This document shows positions 11,633 through 17,068 of a stretch of 64,000 nt of DNA, piece after piece. Numbering within the stretch: position 1 is the first letter of the stretch; every line of letters starts with the position of its first letter. Where the stretch lies: contig JACQAM010000026.1 in assembly GCA_016194975.1 (NCBI GenBank), positions 62,001 to 126,000 of the forward strand, written 5' to 3'. The DNA comes from Bacteroidota bacterium. GTDB taxonomy: Bacteria; Bacteroidota; Bacteroidia; Palsa-965. Under the pieces are notes generated by a model. That model saw nothing but the letters and a program-made list of their open reading frames with translations. It was not told where the DNA came from and ran no database searches. The position numbers were made by a program, and so were the translations under genes.

Positions 11633-12747
11633 CCTGTTTTCTTTTTTCCGATCAGTTCAAGCACTTCATTCGCTATGAGCTCTGCTGAATTTTTCACAGC
11701 GAGTGTGCTGATGTTCGCAGAAAGTTTTTCCTGCATCAATTTATCGTTCAATAAATCAATGATCCTTGCAGGAAGTTTTTCCTTTGCCTCCGCATCTTTC
11801 ACGAGTAATGCCGCTTCTTTTCTCACCAGCGACATCGCATTTTTAGACTGGTGATCTTCCGCCACATTCGGTGAAGGCACGAGAATGGCTGGTTTCTTTA
11901 CCAGGCATAATTCCGATACGGAACTTGCTCCCGCGCGCGACACGATCACATCGGCGGCAGCATACGCGAGATCCATTTTTGAAATGAAATCAAAAACTTT
12001 CATTCCGCGCTGGTCATTTTTCACTGCTTCTTCTGCTTCGCGGAAATAATTTTTCCCCGTTTGCCAGATGAGTTGAATATTATTTTCACGCAGTTGTTGC
12101 AGACATTGCTTTATCGTTTCGTTGATTGTTCTTGCCCCGAGGCTTCCTCCGATGACCAGCACTATTTTTTTATCCGCAGCAAGGCCGAAGATGCCCAATG
12201 CCTGTTTTCTTTTTCCTTCCAGTTCAAGAATATCACTGCGAACAGGGTTTCCTGTAAAAACAATTTTTTCTTTCGGAAAATATTTTTCCATTCCTTCATA
12301 AGCCACGCAGATGCGATTTGCTTTCTTCGAGAGAATTTTATTCGTGATGCCGGGAAATGAATTCTGTTCCTGTATGAGTGTAGGAATTCCTGCATTGGAC
12401 GCAACACGCAGCATGGGACCACTTGCATAACCTCCTGTTCCAATAGCTGCATCAGGGCGAAAACGTTTCAGTATTTTTTTCGCGCGCATGATGCTGCCGA
12501 GTAATTTGAAAGGAAAAGAAAAATTACTCAGCGTGAGTTTGCGTTGCAATCCGGCGATCTTCAATCCTTCGATACGGAATCCTGCAGCGGGAACCTTTTC
12601 CATTTCCATTCTTCCTTCCGCTCCCACAAAAAGAAAATCTGCATCCGGAACGCGGAGTTTGAGTGCATTTGCAATAGCGATGGCCGGAAAAATATGTCCG
12701 CCTGTACCGCCGCCGCTGATGATGAATTTAAGCTGTGGCAACTTCAC
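11629..12747 (-). CDS. murG: UDP-N-acetylglucosamine transferase MurG
   Basis: MurG converts lipid I to lipid II at the inner face of the membrane. Signature segments are FIISGGGTGGHIFPAIAIANAL (first G loop), GTGGYASGPMLRVA, LIQEQNSFPGITNKIL and the UDP-GlcNAc site VIGGSLGARTIN followed by SRAGASSVSELCLVKKPAILVPSP and EDHQSKNA. I place the start at GTG 12747 or TTG 12741, which lies just behind a purine-rich GGAGG sequence. The ATG at 12795 in the same frame would add 16 basic residues and overlap ftsW by 68 nt, which is less likely. Confidence 0.95.
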   Translation of the reverse strand: MKLPQLKFIISGGGTGGHIFPAIAIANALKLRVPDADFLFVGAEGRMEMEKVPAAGFRIEGLKIAGLQRKLTLSNFSFPFKLLGSIMRAKKILKRFRPDAAIGTGGYASGPMLRVASNAGIPTLIQEQNSFPGITNKILSKKANRICVAYEGMEKYFPKEKIVFTGNPVRSDILELEGKRKQALGIFGLAADKKIVLVIGGSLGARTINETIKQCLQQLRENNIQLIWQTGKNYFREAEEAVKNDQRGMKVFDFISKMDLAYAAADVIVSRAGASSVSELCLVKKPAILVPSPNVAEDHQSKNAMSLVRKEAALLVKDAEAKEKLPARIIDLLNDKLMQEKLSANISTLAVKNSAELIANEVLELIGKKKTG

Positions 12748-13948
12748 CTCCTCTCTGTATTCCTTCCGTTTTATTTTCCGCTTCAATATCCTCACCCGAT
12801 TCTGTTTCGCGGCTTACACTGAGAATAATTCCAATTGCGATGCTGGAGAATAACAATGAAGTTCCTCCCATGCTCAGGAAAGGAAGCGACTGGCCGGTGA
12901 CCGGAAATAAATTCACGGCGACCGCCATATTGATAAGTGCCTGGAAAATGAGACTGAATGAAAGTCCGAATGCAAGAAGCGTCCCGAATGTTTTCTGGCT
13001 TTTTGTTGCGACGCGCACACCGCGGTACAAAAGGATCATGTAGAGAAGAGTAATTCCGATGCCGCCGAAAATAGATCCGTATTCTTCGATGATGATCGCA
13101 TAAATAAAATCGGAATACGCTTCGGGAAGAAAATTCCGCTGCGTGGAATTGCCCGCGCCTTTACCCGTGATGCCTCCTGTTGCCACTGCGATCTTCGCGA
13201 GTTTTGCCTGGAGACTTTTGTCCGGATCTTTTTCTTCTTCTCCTTTGAAAAATTCAACGATACGTTGTTCCCACACGTGAACGCGCGGAAGTGCTTTCGG
13301 GAAAAAATATCCCATCATGATGAGCATGGAAAATCCTGCGATGGCAATGCCCAGCACTTTAACGATGGACTTGAACGGAACACGGCCGATGAACATGAGG
13401 ATAAGACACGTGGTGAAGAGTAATGCAGCAGTAGAAAAATTCGCGGGAAGGATCAATCCGCAAATGAGAAAAACAGGAAGCATGATGGATCTGAAAACCT
13501 GTTTGAAATCATTGAGCTGATCCTGCTTCTGCGTGAGCACGCGTGCGACATACATAATGAGCGCGAGCTTTGCAAAATCTGAAGACTGAAAAGTAAGGCC
13601 GACTCCCGGTATAGCGATCCAGCGTGATGCATCATTCACACTCGCACCATGAATAAGTGTATAGAGCAGAAGCGGCACAGAAATAAAAAGCATGATCTGT
13701 GAGACGCGCGAAAAATAAACGTAGCGGATGCGGTGCGTGATGTACATGAGTGCAAACCCGAGCAGGATGAGACGCGCATGTTTGAAAAGATAAAATTCAG
13801 TTTGCCCGTCATGATGTTTGTAAGCAAGAGCAACAATGGAACTGTAAACTGCAAGCAAGGAAAGCAAAGAAAGCAGCACAACGATCACCCAGACCACTTT
13901 GTCGCCTTTGAGAAATCCGAATAATTTTATCCTGTTCTCAGTTGCCAT
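12728..13948 (-). CDS. ftsW: Lipid II polymerase FtsW (SEDS family)
   Basis: FtsW is the polytopic SEDS glycosyltransferase that polymerises septal peptidoglycan with its partner FtsI. The 406 residues show about ten membrane segments, the loop NFSTAALLFTTCLILMFIGR, the GNSTQRNFLPEAYSDFIYAIIIEEYG motif and the end MAVAVNLFPVTGQSLPFLSMGGTSLL, all SEDS hallmarks. The large periplasmic loop contains the acidic stretch EEEKDPDKS. Its start overlaps the end of the MurD-like gene by 11 nt. RodA is a related alternative, but the dcw context supports FtsW. Confidence 0.96.
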   Translation of the reverse strand: MATENRIKLFGFLKGDKVVWVIVVLLSLLSLLAVYSSIVALAYKHHDGQTEFYLFKHARLILLGFALMYITHRIRYVYFSRVSQIMLFISVPLLLYTLIHGASVNDASRWIAIPGVGLTFQSSDFAKLALIMYVARVLTQKQDQLNDFKQVFRSIMLPVFLICGLILPANFSTAALLFTTCLILMFIGRVPFKSIVKVLGIAIAGFSMLIMMGYFFPKALPRVHVWEQRIVEFFKGEEEKDPDKSLQAKLAKIAVATGGITGKGAGNSTQRNFLPEAYSDFIYAIIIEEYGSIFGGIGITLLYMILLYRGVRVATKSQKTFGTLLAFGLSFSLIFQALINMAVAVNLFPVTGQSLPFLSMGGTSLLFSSIAIGIILSVSRETESGEDIEAENKTEGIQRGGEVATA

Positions 13949-14447
13949 GATGAAGTTTTTTCACGAGTTCGCGGAACCGGTCACCGCGATTCCTGTAATT
14001 ATCGAATGCATCATAACTCGGGCAGGAAGGAGAAAAAAGAATTGTTTTTATTTTTTCATCCGAGTACAACGCAGCAAGCGCTATCGCATCATGCAGGTTC
14101 TCTGCCTTCAATATTGTTTTTGTTTTTCCTTCGAACGCATTGAAATATTTCCATGGTGTGGATCCGAGCGCGATCACCACTTGCACTTTTTCACTGACGA
14201 ATTGAATAAGTTTATGATGATCATCGGCACGATCCGTTCCGCCGATGATCAGCGTAACGGGGCCGGGAATATCACGCAATGCAAACCAGGTCATATCCAC
14301 CGAAGTTGCAATGGAATGATTTACCCATTGCATGCCATTATGTTCGAGAACTGTTTCCAGGTAATGCGAATCATCGCCTTGTATTTTCAGGCGCGCATCA
14401 ACCAGTTCACGATAATGATCTTTTCCGGTGACAGGATTGCTTTTCAT
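13938..14447 (-). CDS. Stand-alone MurD C-terminal-domain paralogue
   Basis: A 169-residue protein directly downstream of murD (10 nt after its stop) that aligns with the C-terminal domain of the MurD encoded next to it. Shared landmarks are TWFAL after the substrate motif, GGTDRADDHHKL against GGVDKGNDYASL, ILFSPSCPSYDAFDNY against VLLSPACASFDLFENY, and RG..F. The DSKATN motif of MurD is changed to HSIATS (Asp, Lys and Asn lost), and the Lys of GGVDKGND is Arg. The N-terminal UDP-binding domain and the central P-loop domain are absent, so ligase activity is not expected. Start ATG at 14447; a longer open frame up to 14570 only overlaps murD. It looks like a tandem partial duplication that has diverged but kept an intact frame. 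Confidence 0.88.
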   Translation of the reverse strand: MKSNPVTGKDHYRELVDARLKIQGDDSHYLETVLEHNGMQWVNHSIATSVDMTWFALRDIPGPVTLIIGGTDRADDHHKLIQFVSEKVQVVIALGSTPWKYFNAFEGKTKTILKAENLHDAIALAALYSDEKIKTILFSPSCPSYDAFDNYRNRGDRFRELVKKLHHGN

Positions 14448-14457
14448 TTTATTTTTT

Positions 14458-15792
14458 TTAAAGTGCGCGAACAGCATTTTTGAACTGGCGGCCGCGGTCT
14501 TCATAATTCTCGAAAAGATCGAAGCTTGCGCAGGCAGGAGAAAGAAGAACGGTGTCTCCTTTTGTTGCAAAACGCGAGGACAACGTTACAGCTTGCTGTG
14601 CAGTTTTCGCTTCAGAAATATTTTTCACTACGCTGCCGAATATCTTTTTGATCTTCGCATTCTCGGTGCCGAGGATCACGATCGCTTTCACTTTGGTTTT
14701 CACCAGTTCGACAAGCGATGCGTAATCATTCCCTTTATCGACACCGCCAACGATCCACACAACAGGAGTGGTCATACTTTCGAGTGCAAACCACGTGGAA
14801 TTCACATTGGTTGCTTTCGAATCGTTGATGAAGTCGATGTTGTTCACGCGCGCAACGAATTCCATCCGGTGTTCTATATTCTGAACATCAGCGAGTGATT
14901 CGCGCACGGTTTCTTTTCTTACTTCCAGCAAGCGGGAGGCGATGCCGGCTGCCATGGAATTATAAATGTTGTGCTTGCCCTGGAGTGCGAGTTCTTCGAT
15001 CGTCATAGAGAATTGATTATGGTTTGTATTTATTATTATTTCATTTCCGTTGAGCCATGCACCTTCTTCCACTTTATTTTTCTGTGTGAAAGGATACAAG
15101 TGCGCCGCTGTTTTTCTTTTTTTCATTTCCTGCATCGTGATCTCATCGTCCATGCAGAAAATAAATGCGTCTTCCGGCTGCTGGTTCTGCGTGATGCGGA
15201 ATTTTGAAGCCGAATAATTTTCCATTTTGTGATCGTACCGGTCGAGGTGATCGGGAGTGATGTTGGTGAGCACGGCGATGTTTGCGCGGAAGTCGTACAT
15301 GTCATCGAGCTGAAAACTGCTCAGTTCGATCACGAAATAATCGTACTCCTTCTCTGCAACAAGAGCGGCAAAACTTTTTCCGACATTACCTCCCATCGCT
15401 ACATTCATTCCTGCTTTTTTCAGAATGTGATGAATGATGTGTGTCGTCGTTGTTTTTCCGTTGCTCCCCGTTATGCAGATCATTTTCGCATTGGTAAATC
15501 GCGCTGCGAATTCAATCTCGCTGATCACCGGTATTCCTTTTTTTCGCAATGCAACAATGAGCGGCGCAGTTCCCGGTATGCCCGGGCTCCTGATCACTTC
15601 ATCGGCACTGAGAATTTTTTTCTCCGTGTGATTTCCCTCTTCCCATTCGATCCCAAGATTTGAAAGAACGTCCTTGTACTTTTGTTTGATGATGTTTTTA
15701 TCTGTGACAAAAACATCCATTCCTTTTTTTTTCGCCAGCATTGCTGCGCCGGTTCCGCTTTCTCCTGCGCCGATGATCACGATGCGTTTCAT
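14458..15792 (-). CDS. murD: UDP-N-acetylmuramoylalanine--D-glutamate ligase MurD
   Basis: MurD adds D-glutamate to UDP-MurNAc-L-Ala. The 444-residue product has the N-terminal Rossmann domain (RIVIIGAGESGTGAAML), the P-loop CITGSNGKTTTTHIIHH, the DHLDRYDHKMENYSASKFRI motif, NDSKATNVNSTWFAL (substrate-binding DSKATN), GGVDKGND and SPACASFDLFENYEDRG. All the expected catalytic positions are present, in contrast to the diverged domain copy that follows it. The start is 7 nt after the mraY stop. Confidence 0.97.
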   Translation of the reverse strand: MKRIVIIGAGESGTGAAMLAKKKGMDVFVTDKNIIKQKYKDVLSNLGIEWEEGNHTEKKILSADEVIRSPGIPGTAPLIVALRKKGIPVISEIEFAARFTNAKMICITGSNGKTTTTHIIHHILKKAGMNVAMGGNVGKSFAALVAEKEYDYFVIELSSFQLDDMYDFRANIAVLTNITPDHLDRYDHKMENYSASKFRITQNQQPEDAFIFCMDDEITMQEMKKRKTAAHLYPFTQKNKVEEGAWLNGNEIIINTNHNQFSMTIEELALQGKHNIYNSMAAGIASRLLEVRKETVRESLADVQNIEHRMEFVARVNNIDFINDSKATNVNSTWFALESMTTPVVWIVGGVDKGNDYASLVELVKTKVKAIVILGTENAKIKKIFGSVVKNISEAKTAQQAVTLSSRFATKGDTVLLSPACASFDLFENYEDRGRQFKNAVRAL

Positions 15793-15799
15793 CCTGTGA

Positions 15800-17068
15800 T
15801 CAACGCAGTTTAAGAGTTGCTATAGCGAGAATTCCGAGCATGATGGCTATGATGAGGAATCGAAAAACAATTTTCGATTCGTGCATTCCTTTTTTCTGGT
15901 AATGATGATGCAAAGGCGACATCAGGAAAAGACGATGCGATCTTGCATAATCGAGACCGAATTTTTTCTTGCGGAACCTGAATACTGTGACCTGAAGTAT
16001 GACAGAGAATATCTCGACGAAAAAAGTTCCGCAGAGAATGGGAATGAGCAATTCTTTCCTGATCGCGATCGCAAACACCGCAATGATCCCACCGAGCGCG
16101 AGACTTCCGGTATCTCCCATGAAAACCTGCGCGGGATATGAATTGTACCAGAGAAATCCTACGCACGCACCAATGAATGCGCCGATGAACACCACAAGTT
16201 CTCCCGTGTCGGGGATATACATGATGTTCAGGTAATCGGCGAAGATGGTATTGCCCGAAACGTAAGCGAGAATTCCCAGCACGACACCGATCACTGCAGA
16301 AGTTCCGGATGCAAGTCCGTCAATTCCGTCGGTAACATTTGCACTGTTCGAAACAGCAGTGATGATGAAGATGACAATGGGAATGAAAATGAGCCACGCC
16401 CAGTCTTTCGCCTTATCACCGAGGAACCATAATAATTTTGAATAATCGAATTCATTATTTTTTACGAATGGAATTGTTGTTTTCAGTGAATGCGTTTCCT
16501 CACTTGCGTAAATCGGGAGATGCGCCGAAGGAGCTGAAGACTGTTCAGTGGTCATCGTGATGAGATCATTGTTCGCCGCAGAAATTTTTTCTTTCACACC
16601 TACATTATGATTGAAATAAAGAACAGACCCGACGAGTAACCCGAGCCCCACCTGTCCCATGATCTTGAATTTTCCGTGCAGTCCCTGTTTATCTTTTTTA
16701 AAAACCTTGATGTAATCGTCAATGAAACCGATGATGCCGAGCCACACTGTTGAGATGAGCATGAGCATGATGTAAACGTTCGCGAGTTTTGCAAACAACA
16801 AGGTGGGAATGACGATCGCTGCAAGAATGATGAGTCCGCCCATCGTAGGCGTTCCTTCTTTTTCTTTTTGTCCGTGCAGTCCCAGATCACGCACCATTTC
16901 GCCTACTTGTTTTTTCTTGATAAAAGTGATGATGCGTTTTCCGAAAACCATCGAGATGAGCAACGAAACGAATACCGCCATCGCCGCGCGGAAGGAGATG
17001 TACCGGAATACTCCCGCTCCCGGAAAATTGTGCACCTTATGCAACCACATGAAGAGATAGTAGAGCAT
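15800..17068 (-). CDS. mraY: Phospho-N-acetylmuramoyl-pentapeptide transferase MraY
   Basis: MraY transfers phospho-MurNAc-pentapeptide to undecaprenyl phosphate, making lipid I at the inner membrane. Motifs are [15 protein letters not shown], the catalytic Asp motif [39 protein letters not shown], the Mg-binding [13 protein letters not shown] and the final [11 protein letters not shown]-type motif (here [18 protein letters not shown]). The 422 residues exceed the usual 320-360 because of an insertion at about residues 155-215 in a loop ([20 protein letters not shown] onward), as commonly seen in Bacteroidota. Confidence 0.97.

Follow-up and report, generated by a model that had tools for sequence, protein, structure and literature searches.

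In the window (the whole stretch of 64,000 nucleotides that was analysed), a gene between murD and ftsW encodes the C-terminal domain (domain 3) of the D-glutamate ligase MurD alone. This stand-alone gene, for which we use the working name C2, is an old gene maintained by purifying selection. Its product may be a non-catalytic binding (docking) subunit of the Mur/Fts peptidoglycan-precursor machinery. Among the roles considered we place docking first, if tentatively, followed by regulation of MurD, which we regard as rather unlikely, and then by sensing of glutamate or precursor, which appears improbable.

Identity and genomic position of C2

The cluster around C2, with gene names taken from sequence and locus comparison, reads ftsI-murE-mraY-murD-C2-ftsW-murG-murC-ftsQ-ftsA and lies entirely on the minus strand. 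The following features frame the gene:

15800..17068, minus: mraY, upstream of murD
14458..15792, minus: murD, complete three-domain D-glutamate ligase, 444 aa (TIGR01087 419.8 bits, above cut-off)
14448..14457, minus: 10-nt spacer from the murD stop to the C2 start
13938..14447, minus: C2, stand-alone MurD C-terminal-domain gene, 169 aa (profile match, predicted fold, same slot in relatives)
13938..13948, minus: 11-nt overlap of the C2 end with the ftsW start (ftsW ATG at 13948)
12728..13948, minus: ftsW, directly 3′ of C2 in the loci mapped at gene level

The original prediction had placed C2 at the correct coordinates but without a strand, which is minus as for the whole cluster. It had described an intact gene of 169 residues after murD that copies the C-terminal domain alone, and the reading frame (ATG start, TGA stop), the profile match and the fold agree on this. 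The tight embedding it had noted, 10 nt after murD (whose stop codon ends at 14458) and overlapping ftsW, was likewise recovered, with an overlap of 11 nt. C2 matched the NCBIfam model TIGR01087 (murD) with E = 1.3e-29 and 103.6 bits over model positions 305-441 of 441 alone, a score below the curated whole-protein cut-off (211.95 bits) that defines a MurD ligase. The UDP-precursor-binding and ATP-binding domains are absent, and the 169 residues represent the domain-3 region alone. The match to Pfam Mur_ligase_C (PF02875; 22.6 bits, E = 2e-4) remained under the gathering cut-off of 28.4 bits; despite this score, the domain assignment is backed by TIGR01087 and by the fold. An AlphaFold2 model based on 11 natural C2 sequences (pLDDT 84, pTM 0.82) exhibited an N-terminal helix (residues 8-23), and its best PDB matches were MurD C-terminal domains (Foldseek E = 3e-11, query TM 0.68-0.76). 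C2 is thus predicted to adopt the domain-3 fold of a Mur ligase C-terminal domain. We define the C2 family by its slot between murD and ftsW, a length of about 155-210 aa and membership in one clade separate from MurD tails, and the window gene belongs to this family.

Distribution, ancestry and selection

The same gene is found between murD and ftsW in relatives, including nearly all of the family and many other families. Each of the six other genus members had a short second MurD-tail match beside murD on the same contig, as did, in a first survey, four of five other family members; the exception (G011, 59% complete) gave no match whatever, MurD included. Fetched loci laid out gene by gene showed the order murD-C2-ftsW, a slot fixed in about 47 loci from some 20 families. 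About 50 loci outside family f73 were checked in this manner (f- and g- codes are our survey labels for families and genera), and the rule that ftsW lies downstream of C2 holds with the exception of a few distant extra copies. In an even draw, about 80 of 396 Bacteroidia genomes, from about 19 of 78 families, carried a solo MurD tail gene, as counted by hand from match tables with presence taken as two or more matches; most of the other genomes in this draw yielded a single match, MurD itself. Outside Bacteroidia, two matches occurred in only 2 of about 186 Bacteroidota genomes of a phylum-wide draw (match counts alone). Those surveyed genomes that carry a name are MAGs.

In genomes that lack C2, murD is directly followed by ftsW with a gap of up to about 160 nt, and no remnants of C2 were seen by eye in six such intergenic regions. 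Within genus g23 (family f21), 7 of 17 surveyed genomes carry C2, and a MurD + FtsW tree of 16 of its genomes, many of whose inner branches have low support, points to C2 having been gained or lost more than once. Many lineages, even within one genus, thus do without C2, indicating that it is not essential everywhere. In G052, a single MAG, the cluster is split, with mraY and murD on one contig and the tail gene together with ftsW on another.

Several unusual arrangements were observed as well. In G300 (family f74), murD and ftsW are separated by two solo MurD-tail genes in tandem (L159:2534-3638, +), and solo MurD-tail genes far from the dcw cluster are present in G052 (L156:5374-5991, -) and G347 (L157:4673-5287, -), the latter of which could be MAG contamination. 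An murC (L034:6807-8251) and an murD (L037:2459-3890) are each split over two overlapping frames, by a sequencing or assembly frameshift or by real disruption. Long open frames in family f9 had raised the possibility of a MurD-C2 fusion, which was rejected because the extra length sits upstream of MurD.

A first tree of 47 C2 sequences and 45 MurD tails from the same genomes separated the two groups by one branch (SH-aLRT 95). C2 remained one group after addition of the MurD tails of C2-less genomes and of distant outgroups, with a support of 89 in a quick tree and 94/88 in a mixture-model tree. Such a single clade fits a single old partial duplication of murD followed by many losses, and recurrent independent duplication in each lineage is not supported, since C2 forms one side of a single branch. 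The designation as a paralogue that had been proposed is therefore apt with regard to MurD-tail ancestry, but not in the sense of a recent copy of this genome's murD: C2 represents an old lineage and shares 36% identity with the tail of the adjacent MurD. The Mantel correlation of C2 distances with those of MurD, FtsW and MraY was weak (rho 0.20-0.33, p at most 0.018), and a degree of transfer or of variation in rate may have contributed. Rate covariation gave no partner signal for C2 but lacked power, as the two parts of MurD itself did not covary either (r = 0.09).

The suspected selection on the frame was borne out by pairwise omega values well below 1 (0.015-0.27 by Nei-Gojobori, where computable and with synonymous sites often near saturation), by about 47 copies with intact frames over very large divergence, and by the same slot across families. 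Neither absence from close relatives nor neutral dN/dS nor broken frames, which the original prediction had set against itself in advance, was encountered in these between-species comparisons. A recent local duplicate or pseudogene can be discarded in view of the old clade, the intact frames and the purifying selection. It is also very hard to believe that C2 has no protein function, be it as a duplicate in decay or as a spacer whose sole use is to couple translation to ftsW. The short spacers and overlaps and the patchy presence would fit this idea, yet the low omega values of C2 and of the f73 tail gene (0.06-0.36), the preservation of the frame over such divergence and the direct succession of murD and ftsW in many lineages without C2 all speak against it.

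Residues kept and lost in C2

Residues are numbered after E. coli MurD via alignment. Three stretches of the window gene cover most of the diagnostic positions:

14301..14318, minus: HSIATS, C2 residues 44-49, replacing MurD DSKATN (E. coli 317-322), from the alignment
14229..14231, minus: C2 Arg73, replacing MurD Lys348 (glutamate carboxylate contact, PMC3527612), from the alignment
13983..14039, minus: C2 residues 137-155, LFSPSCPSYDAFDNYRNRG, equivalents of Ser415, Phe422 and Arg425-Gly426, the best-conserved stretch of the family

The motif changes that had been read from the sequence were all reproduced: TWFAL, SPSCPSYDAF and NYRNRG are kept, DSKATN has become HSIATS and GGVDK has become GGTDR, with arginine in place of lysine. 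In terms of single residues, Asp317 corresponds to His44, Lys319 to Ile46 and Arg302 to Tyr29, while Thr321 (Thr48), His301, Glu304, Ser415 (Ser144) and Arg425-Gly426 are retained and Phe422 is replaced by Tyr151. With Tyr29, Ile46 and Arg73 at the positions of Arg302, Lys319 and Lys348, the window gene lacks the residue set of a MurD domain 3. Arg302 of MurD has been described as a handle for the rotation of domain 3 (PMC4816537). Lacking the UDP- and ATP-binding domains and, in the window copy, the hinge arginine and the glutamate-holding lysine, C2 cannot ligate on its own. The motif LFSPxCPSYDAFDNYKNRG hardly varies within the genus or within several further families, and it is consistently unlike LLSPACASFDLFENYEDRG of MurD.

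The pattern extends to the family. In the 47 C2 sequences compared, the positions equivalent to His301, Glu304, Asn316, Pro411 and Gly426 are invariant, those equivalent to Ser318, Ser415, Phe419, Arg425 and Phe429 are conserved in 91-98% (Ser415 in 91%), position 422 is tyrosine in 89% and the equivalent of Thr321 is kept in 77%. In contrast, Arg302 is found in 45%, Lys319 in 51% and Lys348 in 15% of the C2 sequences, as compared to 98-100% of 65 MurD tails. Arg302 and Lys348 are thus mostly lost. C2 has often been deprived of the enzyme's hold on ATP and on the carboxylate of glutamate, but a large part of this face is kept. The best-kept residues, equivalents of His301, Glu304, Asn316, Ser318, Ser415, Tyr422, Arg425 and Gly426, include the glutamate-pocket and hinge side and speak in favour of a Mur ligase or glutamate as the contact; some of the conserved residues may be there for the fold alone.

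Glutamate itself is one candidate ligand. Lys348, Thr321, Ser415 and Phe422 of MurD contact the carboxylates of glutamate-mimicking inhibitors (PMC3527612), and with Ser415, a tyrosine at 422 and Thr321 kept in most family members, C2 could sense or hold glutamate or the glutamate end of UDP-MurNAc-dipeptide. The window isoleucine at 319 and arginine at 348 would suit such binding; both recur in each of the six MurD2-type tails compared, which may reflect convergence or a common ligand preference. We nevertheless judge this small-molecule role improbable: Lys348 is gone from 85% of C2 sequences, the UDP-precursor site is absent from a lone domain 3, and the tail gene of family f73 (see below) persists despite a lost pocket.

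In family f12 (L048, L059, L073 and L077) the solo tail retains all catalytic motifs, including NDSKATN and GGVDK, and its rate of evolution is lower than that of the tail within MurD (97% versus 83% identity between L048 and L073). These properties would be expected if C2 were a catalytic domain in trans, replacing MurD's own domain 3 under some condition. The catalytic residues are, however, lost in most other members, the window gene included, and MurD's own tail is intact in those C2 genomes outside f73 whose MurD was aligned; we give this reading very little credence. The full MurD of f12 is divergent (about 50% identity to the window MurD), and it is possible that murD was replaced in this family beside a retained native tail.

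Family f73 and the proposed docking role

The f73 sample comprised 12 genera with 61 genomes searched. A MurD-tail match was obtained in 60 of these, in nearly all cases within an open reading frame some 180 aa long. Gene order was mapped in loci that partly overlap; where their contigs extend far enough, this tail gene is flanked by mraY and ftsW, and no MurD body was found between these two genes. The complete MurDs of f73 are encoded elsewhere. In all 21 MurD loci mapped, their match to a MurD2-type ligase of G272 by far surpassed that to the window MurD, and 14 of these loci have a MurL-like epimerase fused or adjacent to the MurD2-type ligase. The first such protein, of 885 aa and from G272, reached 288 bits with the MurD model and 258 bits with the MurL model (below the MurL cut-off of 700). 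Fusions of a MurL-like and a MurD2-type part, about 890-1050 aa in length, were observed in f73 at L165:4267-6921 (-) and at L218, L219, L220, L221, L222, L223, L224 and L225. A MurL match was present and a glutamate racemase (MurI) match absent in 10 of 10 f73 genomes checked; the corresponding figures for genomes outside f73 were 0 of 53 for MurL and 52 of 53 for the racemase. In the 395-genome draw, MurL was not found in Bacteroidia other than G272 of f73. As judged from these sequence matches, native MurD and glutamate racemase are replaced in f73 by a MurL/MurD2-type system encoded elsewhere. In a review on the MurL/MurD2 pathway, one passage names Gamma- and Alphaproteobacteria and rare actinobacteria, and the term 'Bacteroid' is absent from the main text (PMC8788868); measured against this review, the f73 system looks, by sequence, like an extension of the pathway to Bacteroidia. 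Participation of C2 in an L-glutamate pathway of the window genome was rejected, as MurI is present there and no MurL match was obtained.

Omega values of about 0.06-0.36 indicate purifying selection on the f73 tail gene, although its glutamate pocket is mostly lost. Its start corresponds to a methionine inside MurD domain 2, in many cases that of the stretch M-T/N-I-E-x-L-A-x-Q-G, which was not seen in the C2 copies aligned; both features favour a separate truncation. The tree grouped the f73 tails with MurD tails and not with C2, while an AU test did not reject a C2 + f73 clade (p = 0.49). The f73 gene would accordingly be either a truncated native murD or a relative of C2, and by either route the solo tail has outlasted native MurD. 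Its role in f73 cannot depend on native MurD. If it stems from MurD itself and not from C2, the functions of the two genes could differ.

These observations also bear on direct regulation of MurD. By mimicking domain 3, C2 could compete for, or stabilise, the N-terminal/central surface on which domain 3 closes, and so tune D-glutamate addition. C2 is co-encoded with murD and largely keeps the glutamate-pocket and hinge side while Arg302 is lost in about half and Lys348 in most copies; the pocket has decayed in f73, where native MurD is gone; and in another species the protein partner MigC inhibits MurD, albeit at residues 53-103 (PMC12208494). We still consider such a regulator rather doubtful, given that f73 keeps a MurD-tail gene without native MurD, that the tail gene is no longer beside murD in G052, and that many relatives have no C2.

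The roles put forward by the original prediction, a regulator or a subunit of the Mur/Fts complex that binds a ligand or a partner, are plausible. A docking subunit is the reading that we tentatively prefer, on the grounds of the fixed slot, the single clade, the low omega, the catalytic loss, the persistence in f73 and the split cluster of G052. According to this model, an old partial duplication of murD within Bacteroidia would have given rise to C2, which would then have been retained for docking within the peptidoglycan-precursor machinery that the surrounding genes specify. C2 would work through contacts between proteins, and its most likely task would be to keep a Mur ligase, whether MurD or a different one, close to FtsW, MraY or MurG on the membrane side. 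The f73 and G052 cases argue against native MurD as an obligatory partner and direct attention to the part of the cluster near ftsW. The kept glutamate-pocket and hinge-side residues would suit pure scaffolding no better than binding of MurD or glutamate. A broader idea, to which we attach somewhat more doubt than to docking itself, is that, in the peptidoglycan assembly of Bacteroidia, domain 3 of MurD serves a second purpose that does not depend on the ligase. This purpose would have been split off by duplication as C2 and, separately, kept by f73, which truncated its native murD following the switch to the MurL/MurD2-type system.

No description of a stand-alone MurD tail was found in the full-text literature searched, a body of text that leaves out most subscription journals. 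C2 thus seems to be an undescribed gene of one of the best-studied bacterial clusters, present in about a fifth of sampled Bacteroidia. If it is a binding subunit, it would offer a small soluble handle on the long-debated matter of whether and how cytoplasmic Mur ligases assemble and reach the membrane enzymes, and f73, having exchanged the ligase but not the tail domain, amounts to a natural experiment.

Among known systems, domain 3 of MurD (e.g., PDB 7ti7, 2jfg) is closest to C2, being alike in sequence (TIGR01087 305-441), fold and ancestry; C2 differs by the absence of domains 1 and 2, by its status as a separate gene and, in the window, by the replacement of Arg302, Asp317, Lys319 and Lys348. 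MurD2 of the L-Glu pathway (MurL/MurD2) shares with the window C2 the isoleucine at 319 and the arginine at 348, as seen in the f73 MurD2-type tails, but it is a complete ligase from a distant clade that acts with MurL, whereas C2 is domain 3 alone in a genome that has MurI and yielded no MurL match. MurT contains the central domain of Mur ligases and joins GatD in a two-protein amidotransferase complex, in contrast to the lone domain 3 of C2. Both are derived from Mur ligases, and MurT is redeployed outside stem-peptide ligation (PMC6085368, PMC6113224). In other bacteria, Mur ligases are reported to bind MurG, MreB or MraY (PMC6420597), and a C2-like adaptor would fit this known kind of assembly. 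The passages on the MurG/MreB-centred complexes of Bordetella, Thermotoga and Caulobacter describe no stand-alone Mur domain; these complexes are assemblies of a type to which C2 could belong.
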